This document shows positions 2,380-24,187 of a stretch of 64,000 bases of DNA, piece by piece; positions within the stretch are counted from its first letter, which is position 1; the number at the start of each line of letters is the position of its first letter. The position numbers and the translations under genes were made by a program. Source of the DNA: Acanthochlamys bracteata (lineage: Eukaryota > Streptophyta > Magnoliopsida > Pandanales > Velloziaceae). The DNA is taken from NCBI GenBank assembly GCA_019914995.1, contig CM034128.1:6264501-6328500 (forward strand), in the 5' to 3' direction. A model generated the notes under the pieces. That model had not been told where the DNA came from. It saw only the letters and a list, made by a program, of their open reading frames with translations, and ran no database searches.

Positions 2380-3480
2380 TCAATCTTCTTACTTTAGTCC
2401 ACATAGTCCGTACTTCTAACTATTGCCTTCTTGTCTACTTGCAGTCCCTTGGCTAATTATTTGACAGGAATATCTCAGACAACACGCGTATCCTCATCTC
2501 TCTTGAGGAAGCTTACTGTAATTCTCCTAAAGATGTAAATAAGGATTGGTAAAAATTTGTTCCTCTTTCTCGTTCGAGTGCCTTTTTCTATTCCAAGTTG
2601 GTCATCCGTCTCCCTTCTTCAAAAGCACTTAACACTTTTACAGCTATTTTTGCCCCAATCAAGCGTACCAATCATTGAACGAAAAACTTCTATAAATTTT
2701 TTACAACTACTTGTTTCTCTTTGCATTTCGTTTGTCCGGGAATCTGAACCTCCCCATTCCTTTGACCAAGGGGTCCTCGAACCGGAGAAGAATGAATGTT
2801 TGGTAGCTTTAGTGTGCATTTGACAGTACGTTCCTCAAAAATTCTTTTCTAATTTTTATAACATTCTATATAATTTATTTAAAAATTTAGAAAGTATAAA
2901 ACTTTTTATATAATAAGATCTTATTATTGCTGATATTTTTATTATATTGTAGATAAAAAAATAGAGCTTGTTTATTCAAATAGGATAAAAATACTTTCTG
3001 TTCCATAAAAACATTTTTTGAAAACACTCCCAACATTTTCTTAGCCATTGGTTGAATGAAGCGAAGCGATCTTTGGGACCGAGATTTTCCTCTTTGATCT
3101 GAATCGCCGTGTTCAACCCCTCCAACTTATGGCTTTTCCTAGGTACAATGATAGGCTATCGCAGTTGAAACACTTCTTTCACTCTTTATAGAATACTTTC
3201 CTTTCCAAAGCTTTTCCTTGCGCCTGCGAATGCTCTACTAAGGGTGAGCACTATTGATGATGTACTATTTAAGCAAAAAATTGACCGATTGCAATTCGTG
3301 TTTAGAATAAATAGTCAATTATTTTTATTGAGTTTACCGTTTTGTGCAAGGTTAAGCAATGACCTATTACGCCTCTTAAAAATGAAAGGAATTGATACTT
3401 CCTTATTAAGAGAGAAAAGAGAGTCCGTTGAAGATTTACTCGCTTACTAAAATTTTTACTTGTTAATAGTTTTCCCTAAG
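2380..3480. other. More GC-rich non-genic stretch, possibly organelle-derived
   Basis: The stretch is less AT-biased than its flanks and contains short open frames without recognisable domains (for example 2557-2823 and 3244-3450 on +). Phrases such as CCTTGCGCCTGCGAATGCTC and CCAAGGGGTCCTCGAACCGG resemble plant mitochondrial intergenic DNA in texture, but I could not match them to a named mitochondrial gene. Between about 2826 and 3010 it is interrupted by very AT-rich DNA. The nuclear-mitochondrial origin is an inference only. Confidence 0.25.
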
Positions 3481-5097
3481 ATATTGATATGAAGTAGTAC
3501 AATAATAGTATAGAATCCACGCAAATGATTCCAATGAGTCTCTGCTTAGTTGTTGTTGTGTTCAGTTTTAGTACCATTAAATAAATTAATTAAATGCTTA
3601 TAAGGAAGGAAAATGTAGAAATAATGTAAATTCTTATAGAGAGAGTCGATGTTATGCTTTAAAGATTTCAATGCCAAAACATCACAAGAATGATTTTGTA
3701 ATAACTGTAACCTTATGGATTGTAAGAAATAGTGGCCATTACATGCAATGTTTCTTCCTTAGGGTTTTTTTTTCTTTTCTTCTTCTTCTTTTCTCATTTT
3801 TCTGCCCTAACCCATCAGCCGCCACTGCTCCGGCTCCTCTCCGGCGTGAAATCAACCCCTTTCCCGCGATATTCACTTCATTTCATCTTCTCAAGCCATC
3901 CTCCTTCTCATTTCTGGTAGTCCTTATCAATTCCGGCGAGCTACGCCGTGCGGAACAAATTTTTAAAATTTGTCCGGCTATTTTGCCGGCGTTCCGGCGA
4001 CGGTGAGTAGTTAGAAACATTCCTCTCAAATTGCTAAGCCTTTTCCATCATTTAATTGCATTGATTTTCAGCTCCGGCGATTGATATCGCGTGAGTTCGC
4101 CGCCGAACGTAATTTCGTCGATTCCGGCCACCGGCGACAAAATTAAAACTCGTCGTTCATTCTATTGGATTCTACTAGCGGTATTGGTCATTTTTACTGC
4201 CTTGAACGCATTTGGCCGGAACCCTAGCTAGCCGGAATCCGGCGAACTTTTCTGGTGAACTTTCCGGTGACCTAATTAGGTGAGTTAAAAATACCTGCAT
4301 CGCGTATTTGAGATTGTTGTTAGATAAATTATTAATTCGTTTCGTTTTAGAAAATCGTTGGATTGAAAATACGTGACTTGTTGCCGATTCAAGTCGTTTT
4401 AGCATTCGATCGTCTCACATCGTCGGTAAGCTTCTTGGATTCGTTAGTTAGTACTTATTGTGTAGTGGATTAGGAATTTGAATAAACCGTTGAACGAATG
4501 AAATTCTACAATGGTTCACCGTATGCTATTAAACCTTGGATTCAAACTTAGTTAGATATTTATTACAAGTATTTGATTTAGCTTTCATTAGCGTGCTTAT
4601 TATTGAATATGCCCGTATGCACGTTAGGTGGTACGAATGACTTGAATTCGGACGGTGCGGCTTAGAGTTGACAGTTGATATAAATACTTGCTTGGACTAC
4701 AGGTGAGGGTTACCGTGCCACCTTTTCTTCCTAAATTAACATTAGGCTTTCGGCACAGGTAGCATTCACTTTGGAAATTCCGGCGTACTTTGTCATTCTC
4801 TTTATATATTTTGATTTATCCTTCATACTACATATGCCTGTACATGCTTAGGTTTATTTTACATTATGTTTATAGTTAGTATTAGTATGTTTGCATATTA
4901 TAGATTATGTGGCATAATTATGAGAATATACTATATACATGTCAATATTGTTCTTTCATATATGCATAATTATGATCATGATAGCATTGAAGGCATTGGG
5001 CATAGCATGTTCATTGAATGAAAACCTATTATGTTGCATCTACTTGTTAAAGACTGTCGTAACCTATTTTATTATATATGTTGAATGAGATATGGAT

Positions 5098-5277
5098 ACG
5101 GTGGGTCCCAGGAGATACTGGGCACCGAAATAGATAGCCGATGGGTCTCAGGATATACTGGGCATCGAATTATAAGTTATGGATTGTCGGTGGGTCCCAG
5201 GACATACTGGGCACCGAGCTATGATGATATTATTTGCCGGTGGGTCCCAAGACATATTGGGTACCGAGCTTACCTGT
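5098..5277 (+). repeat. Four-unit hairpin minisatellite in left palindrome arm
   Basis: Four imperfect units of the type CGGTGGGTCCCAG-n-CTGGGCACCG are spaced by variable AT-rich linkers. Inside each unit CGGTG/CACCG and CCCAG/CTGGG can pair, so every unit is its own small hairpin. The array reads as an open frame by chance; nothing suggests it is translated. Confidence 0.7.
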
Positions 5278-6856
5278 AGTTTGATATATATAAACGTATT
5301 ACGTATGTATGCTTATATGATATATTCGATAGTGTGATGTGAATTGGAAAAGTGATATCACTCGATCACCTATTTTGTATGATTGTGACACTTGATGCAT
5401 CCGTATACATTATTACATATATTTGCTTGCATGGGTGCACTATATATATGTAAATGTATTATAGTCTTGAGAGTGTCGCATAACATTGTTTCATATTATC
5501 GTATATCTCTGCTAAGAACTGAGTCGGTATGGGACGATTCAAGACTTAGTAGAATCTGATCTGATCTATCGTTGCATCTGCTTCATGTAGATAGTACTAT
5601 AATGCCTATTTAATGCATTATCTAAATTAGGCATTCTCATTGCTTTACCTCACCGAGACCGGGCTCACCTCTTTTTCTCTTCTTTGGCCTCCCGGATAGG
5701 TCGGCTAAGGGCGCCGATTAGACTCGATATTGCTGGACCGAGAGCGTACGGAAGGTATTTGATAAATCTTCTGCCATGTAGTTAGCTCTGTAATTCTCGA
5801 AGGGCATTGACTTTTTTTTACTTTATTGTATTTGGTATTACGATGGTATTTATTTTGGATTGTAATAGGTCTTTGGGTACTCTGTAGCCCATAGATATTT
5901 TTTGTTGGTTTTAGTATTTATATGATTTTGTTTATTTGTTCTGCTTTTGTCGTTATTAAATGATTTATTGTGGTACAGTTTTTCACTTGAAATTATAGGG
6001 AAGATTTTATGAAATTTTATGTATTTTTTTTTTGGAGATATTATTTGGTGAACCGTTTATGATGTTTTGGGTTTTCACTTGAAAAAAAATACATAAAATT
6101 TCCGCAAAATCTTCCCTATAATTTCAAGTGAAAACCTGTACCACAATAAATCACTTAATAACGACAAAACAGAACAAATAAACAAAATCATATAAATACT
6201 AAAACCAACAAAATATCTATACTACGGTAGAGTCACCAAAGACCTATTACAATCCAAAATAAATACCATCGTAATACCAAATACAATAAAGTAAAAAAAA
6301 AGTCAATGCCCTTCGAGAATTACAGAGCTAACTACATGGCAGAAGATTTATCAAATACCTTCCGTGACGCCTCCTACCCAAAGAATATCGAGTCTAATCA
6401 CGCCTGCTAGCTTCCTCGACCTATCCGAGGAGGCCAAAGATGAGAAAAGAGGGTGAGCCTACCTCAAAGAGGTAAAACAAATAGAATGCCCAATTTAGAT
6501 AATGCATTAAATAGGCATTATAGTACTATCTACATGAAGCGATGCAACGATAGATCGATCGATTCTACTAAGTCTTGAATCGCCCCATACCGACTCGGCT
6601 TCTTAGCAGAGATATACGATAATATGAAATAAATGTTATGCGACACTTCAAGACTATAATACATTTACATATATATAGTGCACCCATGCAAGCAAATATA
6701 TGTAATAATGTATACGGATGCATCAAGTGTCACAATCATACAAAATAAAGGATCGAAAGATATCACTTTTTCAATTCACATCACACTATCGAATATATCA
6801 TATAAGCATACATACGTAATACGCTTATATATATCAAACCACAGGTAAGCTCGGTG

Positions 6857-7022
6857 CCCAATATGTCTTGGGACCCACCGGCAAATAATATCATCATAGC
6901 TCGGTGCCCAGTATGTCCTGGGACCCATCGGCAATCCATAACTTATAATTCGATGCCCAGTATATCCTGAGACCCATCGGCTATCTATTTCGGTGCCCAG
7001 TATCTCCTGGGACCCACCGTAT
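6857..7022 (-). repeat. Hairpin minisatellite, mirror copy in right arm
   Basis: This is the inverted counterpart of the left-arm array, again with four CGGTGGGTCCCAG...CTGGGCACCG-type units on the minus strand and a few substitutions (for example a TCGG/CCGA change in one unit). Unit number and order are the same in both arms, so the array was present before the two arms were combined. Confidence 0.7.
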
Positions 7023-9351
7023 CCATATCTCATTCAACATATATAATAAAATAGGTTACGACAGTCTTTAACAAGTAGATGCAACATAATAGGTTTTCAT
7101 TCAATGAACATACTATGCCCAATGCCTTCAACGCTATCATGATCATAATTATGCATATATGAAAGAACAATATTGACATGTATATAGTATATTCTCATAA
7201 TTATGCCACATAGTCTACAATATGCAAACATACTAATACTAACTATAAACATGATGTAAAATAAACCTAAGCATGTACAGGCATATGTAGCATGAAGGAT
7301 AAATCAAAATATATAAAGAGAATGGCAAAGTACGCCGGAATTTCCAAAGTGAATGCTACCTGTGCCGAAAGCCTAATGTTAATTTAGGAAGAAAAGGTAG
7401 CACGGTAACCCTCACCTGTAGTCCAAGCAAGTATTTATATCAACTGTCAACTCTAAGCCGCACCGTCCGAATTCAAGTCATTCGTACCACCTAACGTGCA
7501 TACGGGCATATTCAATAATAAGCACGCTAATGAAAGCTAAATCAAATACTTGTAATAAATATCTAACTAAGTTTGAATCCAAGGTTTAATAGCATACGGT
7601 GAACCATTGTAGAATTTCATTCGTTCAACGGTTTATTCAAATTCCTAATCTACTACACAATAAGCACTAACTAACGAATCCAAGAAGCTTACCGACGATG
7701 TGAGACGATCGAATGCTAAAACGACTTGAATCGGCAACAAGTCACGTATTTTCAATCCAACGATTTCCTAAAACGAAACGAATTAATAATTTATCTAACA
7801 ACAATCTCAAATACGCGATGCAAGTATTTTTAACTCACCTAATTAGGTCACCGGAAAGTTCACCGGAAAAGTTCGCCGGATTCCGGCTAGCTAGGGTTTC
7901 GGCCAAATGCGTTCAAGGCAGTAAAAATGACCAATACCGCTAGTAGAATCCAATAGAATGAACGACGAGTTTTAATTTTGTCGCCGGTGGCCGGAATCGA
8001 CGAAATTACGTTCGGCGGCGAACTCACGCGATATCAATCGCCGGAGCTGAAAATCAATGCAATTAAATGATGGAAAAGGCTTAGCAATTTGAGAGGAATG
8101 TTTCTAACTACTCACCGTCACCGGAACGCCGGCAAAATGGCCGGACAAATTTTAAAAATTTGTTCCGCACGGCGTAGCTCGCCGGAATTGATAAGGACTA
8201 CCGGAAATGAGAAGGAGGATGGCTTGAGAAGATGAAATGAAGTGAATATCGCGGGAAAGGGGTTGATTTCACGCCGGAGAGGAGCCGGAGCAGTGGCGGC
8301 TGATGGGTTAGGACAGAAAAATGAGAAAGGAAGAAGAAGAAAAGAAAAAAAAACACTAAGGAAGAAATATTGCATGTAAGGGCCACTATTTCTTACAATA
8401 GCTTCCTGCAGTCCATAAGGTTACAGTTATTACAGATTTCTTAGCTCATTTTATATGTCCTTATGAAATTATATATTTTGCAATTGATAATTGTTCTAAT
8501 CTATATAAATGAGAAAAATAAATCTTAGGAAATGGTTTTTAATGTGGTAACTTACCATTAGAATTTGTAGATTTGTAATTTTATGAAGTGTGACTATTCC
8601 TTATAAAAAAATTACATAATTGAATAGAAATTAAAATTATTTTAAGTTGTTACAACGATTCAAACTCATAATCATAAATAAAATTTCAATTATTTATGTG
8701 CTAACCATTAACACTAAACATAAATTGGACTTTATTATTTGAGTTCTATTGTTTATATAGAGTTTTAGAAAGTGAAATATAAAAGGATGTAAAACACATA
8801 AGCATCTTACCATTGACTCTATTTCTTTTACTACAATATATAAGGATGTTCTTTATTCATTTTGATAGTCATGTTTCAAGCAGAATTAAATTTGTTAACA
8901 AAACACATGCAATTTTAACTTCTAAGATAATTTCTAAAAATCTAAATGCCAAATTTCAAAAGTAAACATTAATATTGCCAAAATTGTTAGAAAATATAGC
9001 TTTTTGCGAATGATATAGCCTTAATAGATTTACGCATCAACACGAAGCTGAACTTCTTTTCTCTGAAAATTTCAAGATTTTTTGAGTACACTACCAATAT
9101 AAGATTTGAAGATTAAAGAAAGCATACTAACAGGGTAAGGAAATGTACAAAGAATAGAATTTAATATATATGCGAAAACTTGGAGGATTGGAAATGATTA
9201 AATTGCAGGGAACGACATATATCATGTATCAATACATTGTATAATATGAATTTCAAAAGATTTAAATGAGCTAAGGGAGAGAAATCATAGATAAAATTGG
9301 AAAAAAATCAAATGCGATTACTAAAGAATTTTAATGATTTGAAATGCTTGA

Positions 9352-9533
9352 CCTACGGATAGCAATATATGACCCGATCCGAAAATTCAACCGAAGACCG
9401 ACTCATTTAATTGGGATTAGGGTTGAAAAATTTGATGCGTATAAAATATATAGATTGAGATAGGGTTGAACGAATTTGTTCCGATTATTAAATAGGTTGA
9501 TCAGAAATTGATCCGCCAACCTGATTGCCATCT
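9352..9533. repeat. Short hAT-type non-autonomous relic
   Basis: The left side has GATAGCAATATATGACCCG and the right side ends CCTGATTGCCATCTCTT, an imperfect inverted pair related to the GGTGGCAAT...ATTGCCACC ends of this family. The interior has the same AGGGTTGAACGAATTTG and TTATTAAATAGGTTGAT phrases as 1-147 and 10050-10227. No clean 8-bp target duplication is visible. Confidence 0.5.
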
Positions 9534-13082: not shown

Positions 13083-14161
13083 ATGTTAGAAGAGATGCGA
13101 CGCATGTCGGCCAATATTGAGAAACTCACATTAGCCTTCTTTGCTATGCACTCAGACAAAGAACAAGAAGTAATTGAGAATTTCCTCACTGATCAAAACC
13201 AGAAACAAGAGGGATGCACCTCCCTTGCTAGGCAACATTCATCTAGCAAATCCACAAGCTCCTATGCAGCTTCATTACCAACCAATTTCATAACAGCTGC
13301 ACTAACGTCTCACCATCAACCAGCAACCATACTGACTTCCGAACGATCTGCTACTCAGAGCTCTTTGTTGGGAACTTATGGTTCATTAGCAAACATCATG
13401 CAGGCAGTGATAGAAACTCAGGCTCTTATACCTAGGGAAAGACATGTCTTTCCGTTCTTTGATAGAAAGGAACCACAAGAATGGATATATTCTGCAGAAA
13501 GGTACTTTTGTATTATCGAACTTCTGAATTAGATCACATTGCCATAGCTGCCATGTATTTTCAAGGCGATGCCAATCAGTACCATCCACAACATTCGTTG
13601 GAAGTCTTGATAGCTGCACTCCTTCGTCGATTTGGGTCTACAACTTTCGCCAGTGCAAGCTATGCCCTACACCAACTCAAACAAGGAGGCTTAGTGAATG
13701 AACATCAAGCTGCGTTTGAAGACCTATGCGCCAGATTGCCTCACGCCATGGAGGAAGACTTGGTTGGACACTTCTATGGAGGCCTCTCAAAAAGCATTGC
13801 TGTGGAAGTGATGGCTAGACAACCAAAAAATTTACAAGATACCTTCATGTTAGCTCAGTTGTTTGAAAATAAGACAACAGGAGATTCAAATACCAACCGA
13901 TCAGCGCGTTTTCGTTCGGCATCAGCAATCTCACCTATGACACTCCATTCAGGCACAACAGTAAGCTCACTTTCGTCTGCAGTAACCACAGGAAATGTAA
14001 GACCTCGGCTCACTACAGCTGAGATCAACTTAAGAAGAGTTAAGGGCTTATGCTTCTATTGTGATGCAAAGTATGAAAAAGGCCACAGGTGCACAGCGCG
14101 ATTGTATTCACTTGTAGGCTACGATTCAGATGATGGGAAGAAGAGCAAATTGAAAATCTAG
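13083..14161 (+). pseudogene. Ty3/gypsy gag, frameshifted
   Basis: Two overlapping frames, 13083-13532 and 13481-14161, together give a gag-like protein. The first has an acidic/Ser-rich amino terminus ending in an FFDRKEPQEWIYSAERYF stretch typical of the retrotransposon gag domain; the second continues with FQGDANQ.. and LLRRFGSTTFASASYALHQL. A zinc knuckle CFYCDAKYEKGHRC (about 14049-14090), of the CxxC...GHxC type found in plant gypsy elements, lies near the end. A single frame change near 13500 separates the halves, and a stop lies before the protease. It would package element RNA in the cytoplasm if intact; here it is dead. Confidence 0.8.
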
Positions 14162-14250
14162 ACAGCAGTGACTTGACAGAAAAAGTCACCTTATCCTTGA
14201 GTACAATGAACGGTATGGTTGGGCCTCAAACAGTGAGGGTAGTAGGAAAG

Positions 14251-14598
14251 GTCAAGCGATAGGAAGTGTTTATCCTCGTCGATTCGAAAAGTACGCACAA
14301 CTTTATTTTAGAAAGGCTGGCCAAACACCTGTGCTTAGTGGCAGCTACAGTTTGGCCTCTCAAGGTTGAGTTGGCGGATGGATGGCCTCATTCAATCGAG
14401 GTCCTCTACAAGGAAATTCCATTGGAAGTACAAGAAGCCAAGGTAGTAGTTGATGTGTGCCCTTTTCCTCTAGGGGTAATGGATATCGTACTTGGCATTC
14501 AATGGTTGGAGAGTTTAGAAGATGTCATGTGCAATTGGCACCGCTTTGATATGCGACTCCCAGTGCAAGGCCGTGAGTTTGTCTTGAAAGAAATTTGA
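14251..14598 (+). pseudogene. Ty3/gypsy aspartic protease remnant
   Basis: The reading frame gives a retropepsin-like fold signature: a FILVDSKSTHNFI segment, then VELADGW, and DIVLGIQWLESLE. The family normally has Asp-Ser/Thr-Gly at the active site; here the glycine is replaced by lysine (DSK), which should abolish activity. It follows gag after a short gap with stop codons, as expected of a decayed gag-pol. Confidence 0.7.
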
Positions 14599-19635: not shown

Positions 19636-19851
19636 TGTATAGAGAATTGTACTCAATGGCTTATTTTTTTTATTGATATAAGCACATATGTATACACTCA
19701 AGGTTTGCAAAGTTAAATATTCCTAAAATTAAATTTTTCTAAAATTAAGCCAAATCAAATCTTTCTAAAATAAAATAAATCTAATCTTTCTAAATAAAAT
19801 CTTTATAAATTAAACACTCCAAATATAGGAAAGAATCAAATATCGTTATCA
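19636..19851 (-). repeat. 3' LTR of the minus-strand copia element
   Basis: It pairs with 23988-24187; both contain CACATATRTATACACTCAAGG and end in the CAAATATCNTTATCA block. The left copy is longer by small insertions in the A/T-rich middle. Confidence 0.85.
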
Positions 19852-23987: not shown

Positions 23988-24187
23988 TGTAGAGAATTAT
24001 ACTTAATGACTTATTTTTCTTTATTGATATGAGCACATATATATACACTCAAGGTTTCCAAAAGTTAAATGTTCATAAAATTAAGCCAAATCAAGTATTT
24101 CTAAAATAAAATAAATCTAATTTTTTTAAATAAAATCTTTCTAAATTAAGCACTCCAAATATAGGAAGGAATCAAATATCTTTATCA
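23988..24187 (-). repeat. 5' LTR of the minus-strand copia element
   Basis: This is the partner of 19636-19851. On the minus strand it begins TGATAAAGATATTTG and ends ATTCTCTACA, directly followed by the primer-binding site at about 23975-23987. Confidence 0.85.

Follow-up and report, generated by a model that had tools for sequence, protein, structure and literature searches.

A long palindrome of two inverted arms lies at positions 3697-8434 of a 64,000-nucleotide stretch of the Acanthochlamys bracteata genome (contig CM034128.1, positions 6,264,501 to 6,328,500; the whole stretch analysed is called the window), and it is flanked on both sides by the word GATTT. The left arm (3697..6072, + strand) is a copy of a long terminal repeat (LTR) with its U3 (unique 3′) end outermost, and the right arm (6082..8434, - strand) is an inverted copy of the same kind of repeat, again with the U3 end outermost. 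The initial annotation had placed GATTT on both sides of inverted arms, and its coordinates were exact: the unstranded 5-bp target-site duplication occupies 3692..3696 on the left and 8435..8439 on the right. The left arm starts with TGTAATAACTG at 3697, the right arm ends with CAGTTATTACA at 8434, and a 13-nt deletion is present near 3718 in the left arm. Two random 5-base words drawn from the flanks would match by chance in 1 of 392 cases. The palindrome shares with a Ty3/gypsy solo LTR the LTR sequence, the TG...CA ends, the 5-bp duplication and the lack of an internal region. However, a solo LTR has one U3 and one U5 terminus, whereas here two LTRs stand tail to tail around a central filler, both outer termini are exact U3 ends, and both copies lack the U5 end. 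The last part of the LTR, which forms the normal U5 terminus, had no match anywhere in the palindrome, and no internal element sequence, including the primer-binding site (PBS), was found inside it.

Over their whole length, the two arms are 95.5% identical (2334 aligned columns). An ungapped match between them covers 1752 nt with 98% complementarity, and additional blocks follow closer to the centre. When the 64-kb window was scanned with 20-nt exact seeds, the inverted repeats of at least 100 nt amounted to two pairs, both within the palindrome. The palindrome had been described as near-perfect, which is true of the outer 1650 nt of the arms, where 27 differences (25 transitions and 2 transversions) correspond to a divergence (K) of 0.0166, but not of the inner part, where 68 differences were counted at 641 compared sites (K 0.115).

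The genome searches scored the best 40 candidates out of 738, 252, 580 and 291 obtained at first look. The search with each arm gave 46 matches within the best 40 candidates (of 738 for the left and 580 for the right arm), and the repeated unit of the family is an LTR of about 2.49 kb that starts with TGTAATAACT and ends with CTTGACA in most copies. Of the 25 other fetched copies that have both LTR ends, 19 are solitary and flanked by exact 5-bp duplications. Among the remaining six, four have a 5′ flank that ends in TTATAT, as the internal region of the long element does, and these look like 3′ LTRs from their flanks; in one of the four, L011, a longer flank was viewed. Furthermore, one mismatch separates the 5-bp flanks of L016, and those of L027 do not match. 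A longer copy, L040 on C13, consists of two family LTRs (91% identical to each other) that enclose a coding region with matches to Retrotrans_gag, RVP_2 (protease), RT_RNaseH and SH3_Tf2-1 (the C-terminal SH3 of integrase) in the order of Ty3/gypsy elements. The pieces of L040 picked by eye as reverse transcriptase and integrase core gave no Pfam match at 1e-3, and a PBS-like TATCAGAGC follows the 5′ LTR. The arms are homologous to the LTRs that flank the gag-pol region of this family, so that the arms, which had been called LTR-like, are identified by sequence as genuine LTRs of a Ty3/gypsy-type family with a gag-pol element. Inverted or otherwise odd LTRs also occur in DIRS and Penelope elements, whose hallmarks are a tyrosine recombinase and a Penelope-type reverse transcriptase with a GIY-YIG endonuclease, respectively. 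The domains found in the parent are those of Ty3/gypsy, and no search was aimed at the DIRS or Penelope hallmark domains.

The two arms meet at a centre that is asymmetric. With L014 as the reference, the final 87 nt of the LTR are missing from the left arm and the final 124 nt from the right arm. Between them lies a templated filler of 15 nt (6070..6084, + strand, in the same sense as the left arm), which is the exact reverse complement of right-arm positions 6122-6136. At most 3 nt of the filler (GGT, 6070-6072) also belong to the left arm, and 3 nt (AAA, 6082-6084) also belong to the right arm; the filler matches L014 at positions 2314-2326, over 13 nt by BLAST and over 15 nt when compared with the right arm's own sequence. 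In LTR coordinates, the plus strand can be followed to 2403, back to 2314, on to 2326, and, after a reversal at 2366, to the U3 end. As judged from the filler and its overlaps, this anatomy is of the template-switch or end-joining type. The suggestion in the initial annotation that autointegration had produced the palindromic DNA is not specifically indicated by such a centre; moreover, in the available text of PMC4751563, autointegration of retroviruses and Ty1 is described as giving circles, either inverted 2-LTR circles or truncated ones. The autointegration products resemble the palindrome in carrying inverted LTRs made by the element's own machinery, whereas the palindrome is linear and chromosomal, and has a target duplication and the centre described above.

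The relationship between the arms was examined in an alignment of 41 rows, made up of the 2 arms plus 39 loci (38 from the left-arm search and 1 from the centre search) and from which L040 was excluded. The trees were built from 24 of the 41 rows, and the counts of private changes and of CHG contexts from 20 of the 41, with L033 as an unscored context reference in the latter; the rows dropped were mainly more divergent or broken copies. In the tree of the outer 1650 nt, the arms were sisters with a support of 100/98, and their end branches (0.0097 and 0.0066) were shorter than those of the four nearest copies (0.013-0.019). The inner tree also paired them, with a weaker support of 94/89. The outer divergence between the arms compares with K values of 0.023-0.033 in four other pairs measured over the same region. 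In the eight-row clade, 15 states were exclusive to the arms, second to the pair L027/L028 with 16; five of the 15 were also absent from the 33 rows outside the clade, and ten were present there. A scan of 195.5 Mb with a U3-end pattern, allowing up to 2 mismatches, returned 52 matches (0 for the reversed control), and the G at LTR position 11 that both arms carry was absent from all 50 others. For the outer 1650 nt, an origin of the arms from two different donor copies is rejected on the basis of the tree and the shared states. Patches common to the inner block of the right arm and to L009 and L021 first hinted at a different donor, but this hint is weakened because L021 belongs to another subclade of the outer tree, so such patches recur.

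The private substitutions of the outer region were C>T or G>A in 16 of 21 cases in the left arm and in 11 of 17 cases in the right arm. This richness in transitions is as expected if methylated DNA had aged after the insertion. At a substitution rate of 1.3e-8 per site and year, the outer divergence would place the insertion at about 0.6 million years ago, provided that conversion from arm to arm has not reset it. The inner block is unsuitable for dating because of its excess of changes, which are probably erroneous.

The palindrome was the only pair of tail-to-tail U3 ends within 20 kb among the 52 U3 ends, and the genome search with its centre found no other candidate that crosses the centre within the best 40 of 252. 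A family of foldback elements, or of DNA transposons with terminal inverted repeats, is unsupported, as no other copy with the same inverted structure and centre was found in these scans; the unknown foldback class that the initial annotation had considered is not borne out by this single pair. The foldback DNA elements FB and Galileo have long inverted repeats, a short spacer and a flanking duplication. The palindrome is like them in its long inverted arms, short spacer and duplicated flanks, and differs in that no second copy of it was found and that its arms are the LTRs of an identified retrotransposon. The nesting of one LTR in another was also rejected, because the U5 remainder of the outer LTR would adjoin the right GATTT, where no match to it was found. 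We favour the integration of the palindrome as one unit, since the arms are sisters, private variants are common to both, and the 5-bp flanks match at two exact U3 ends. The insertion as one unit that had been proposed earlier for this locus thus appears most likely.

We hypothesize that the palindrome arose when an LTR retrotransposon of the Ty3/gypsy type inserted once in an aberrant form, with U3 at both integrated ends, and we consider it probable that a strong-stop dimer formed by template switching was inserted by integrase. Inside one particle, reverse transcriptase would extend a plus-strand DNA of the strong-stop type (U3-R-U5), slip back by 89 nt when about 90 nt short of the end, and copy about 15 nt. 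A 3-nt A/T match would then let it switch to a second plus strand from the same source element, which would be copied as far as its 5′ (U3) end. The product of reciprocal synthesis would be a linear palindromic duplex, both of whose termini would be exact U3 ends, and integrase would process these two ends and insert the palindrome into GATTT. The strong-stop dimer is favoured because the insert is LTR-sized, has U3 at both ends, carries neither PBS nor internal sequence, and is truncated near U5 on both sides. Both the nature of the inserted DNA and the choice of reverse transcriptase, rather than a host polymerase, as the enzyme that switched are inferred. In the available text of PMC5371799, the minus strong-stop transfer of Ty3 is described and the plus-strand strong-stop transfer in Ty elements is cited, and reverse transcriptase is reported in that of PMC3187697 to be able to slide, flip its orientation and leave its template.

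Several points weigh against this reading. The strong-stop route is not told apart from host end joining of two separately integrated donors, and the anomaly of the inner right arm (K 0.115) means that the central consensus may not be reliable. In the 20-row set, the exclusive shared states of the arms numbered just 7 (4 outer and 3 inner). An empty site was not found, and the searches with the sequence next to the element gave no other copy of it in this assembly; farther out, the left flank has repetitive matches at 2900-3049, and the right flank has them at about 9344-9400, as well as a single weak match at 8695-8824. A second example of such an insertion was not found in the scans made. 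In addition, no precedent for an integrated palindrome of LTRs that ends in U3 twice was found among the open-access papers listed, most subscription papers lying outside this coverage.

The main rival of the strong-stop route is an integration of two donors, in which integrase would attach two separate cDNAs by their U3 ends, one to each strand of a single target site, and their far ends would later be fused by host end joining of the polymerase-theta type with loss of the rest. Concerted integration of two donors occurs in vitro, and it would yield the same matched 5-bp flanks. A templated filler with short overlaps is typical of polymerase-theta-type end joining, and one of 15 nt with 3-nt overlaps is seen at the centre. 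The donors would be about 10 kb long, yet both fused ends lie at most 124 nt from the U5 end and 37 nt apart in LTR coordinates; this would be a coincidence, and the two-donor origin is considered unlikely. A larger palindromic cDNA of the form LTR-internal-internal-LTR, whose centre was deleted after integration, is disfavoured as well, since both ends of the deletion must land just inside the LTR with the internal sequence entirely gone. It is rated slightly lower than the two-donor origin, even though palindromes are described as fragile sites (available text of PMC7999016) and the asymmetry at the centre is consistent with the repair of a break. The inverted copy could also stem from chromosomal template switching at an ordinary solo LTR, and the 3-nt junction overlaps fit switching during replication-repair; U5 and the inverted U3 both end in ACA, which is itself a 3-nt overlap. 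However, the second switch must have hit the boundary between LTR and GATTT exactly, among about 2.4 kb of positions, since the inverted arm would otherwise continue into an inverted left flank, which is absent. We regard such switching as very improbable.

An assembly artefact, such as a long read that folded back or two LTR copies wrongly joined, seems improbable. Palindromes are said to hamper sequencing in the available text of PMC4057610, and the inner right arm does resemble a poorly polished consensus, with 28 of its 52 private changes near CHG and a similar pattern in a copy of another subclade. Nevertheless, each arm has its own ageing changes (the 27 outer differences), so neither was copied from the reads of the other, the GATTT flanks match, and the arms are sisters; furthermore, a foldback read would carry the inverted left flank, from which the actual right flank differs. 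Another possible origin is a pair of independent insertions, opposite in orientation, whose U5 parts were brought together by a deletion; it would require common events alone. Were each of the 738 candidates from the first look an LTR copy, chance would be expected to place a few pairs tail to tail within 5 kb, but this estimate is not enough because such pairs must also be fused, be sisters and have matching flanks. From the 52 U3 ends in 195.5 Mb, about 0.02 such pairs are expected, and the flank match has the chance of 1 in 392 given above. The arms are also exclusive sisters, although gene conversion between them could explain the sisterhood. This origin is likewise held to be very improbable.

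The divergence between the arms is concentrated in an inner block of the right arm (6082..6780, - strand), in which 52 private changes were counted against 8 in the outer 1650 nt of the same arm. In the inner 640 nt of this arm, 28 of the 52 lie within 2 nt of CHG, where 21% would be expected (binomial 2e-7). The inner part of the left arm has 17 private changes, with 8 near CHG (p 0.015), and in 15 other copies 14 of 74 inner private changes lie near CHG. Copy L021 (C1:7536997-7541136), which the outer tree places in another subclade, has 13 of 34 private changes near CHG in its inner and 15 of 28 in its outer part. It has 5 exclusive states in common with the right arm in the inner part and 0 in the outer part. 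Private changes also cluster at 2000-2100 in L009, and of the 56 in the outer part of L018, 20 lie near CHG. The clustered changes in these three copies, which are enriched near CHG in L021 and L018, possibly represent unpolished stretches of the assembly. The inner block of the right arm is itself probably a recurrent consensus error, and this error is likely tied to methylated contexts that were left unpolished; a paper search for a link between long-read errors and CHG methylation found none. A real template-switch mutation in the inner block is also possible. Quasi-palindrome template switching is described as turning imperfect hairpins into perfect ones (available text of PMC3820800), and among the foldings listed for the right-arm patches some become perfect hairpins and others do not, with no uniform rule.

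The U3 of each arm contains a putative TATA box, TATAAATA, at 4679..4686 (+ strand) in the left and at 7432..7439 (- strand) in the right arm, and both putative promoters would read towards the centre. Folded as RNA with no shuffle control, the inner 1480 nt gave -1040 kcal/mol and paired 91% of their bases, which any such palindrome would be expected to do. A read-through transcript is thus predicted to form a hairpin. The Mu killer-type inverted duplication of a transposon, reportedly described by Slotkin et al. in 2005, is similar in that a transposon is duplicated in inverted form and a long hairpin could form from its transcript. Unlike Mu killer, the palindrome consists of LTRs with a putative promoter per arm. 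Tail-to-tail or head-to-head LTR arrangements have been proposed to form LTR hairpins and to help start silencing (available text of PMC11624286), and the insertion may have given rise to a preformed hairpin that acts against the family from which it came. It is a speculative and rather doubtful extension that particles make and integrate two-U3 strong-stop palindromes which act at once as promoter-bearing hairpin loci and silence their own family, as a one-step counterpart of Mu killer. If the favoured reading of a single two-U3 insertion is right, the palindrome would be a natural record of such integration, and this integrase would not require a U3-U5 pair. It would also mean that malformed products of the strong-stop type can reach the chromosome and that a long LTR hairpin can arise in one step. 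Within the LTR, four 37-nt repeats (GGTGGGTCCCAGGA...TGGGCACCGA) occupy 5095..5270 of the left arm (+ strand), with mirror copies at 6848-7023 in the right arm; these repeats are apparently hairpin-capable themselves.

About 2.8 kb upstream of the palindrome, exons at 321-497 and 719-874 match Pfam OB_POT1A, of a POT1A-like telomere protection protein. The genome search with OB_POT1A gave matches at these two positions only, and the protein search with the POT1-like exon returned no result. The left flank includes a stretch of about 130-150 nt at 2900-3049 with 44 other genome matches among the matches listed. Pieces of a second Ty3-type element lie at 13466-14598, where RVP_2 was above the cut-off, and Ty3_capsid and gag were weak and below their cut-offs. 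Further downstream, 132-nt direct repeats at 19720-19851 and 24056-24187 are 90% identical and 4.3 kb apart, and they could be the ends of another element.

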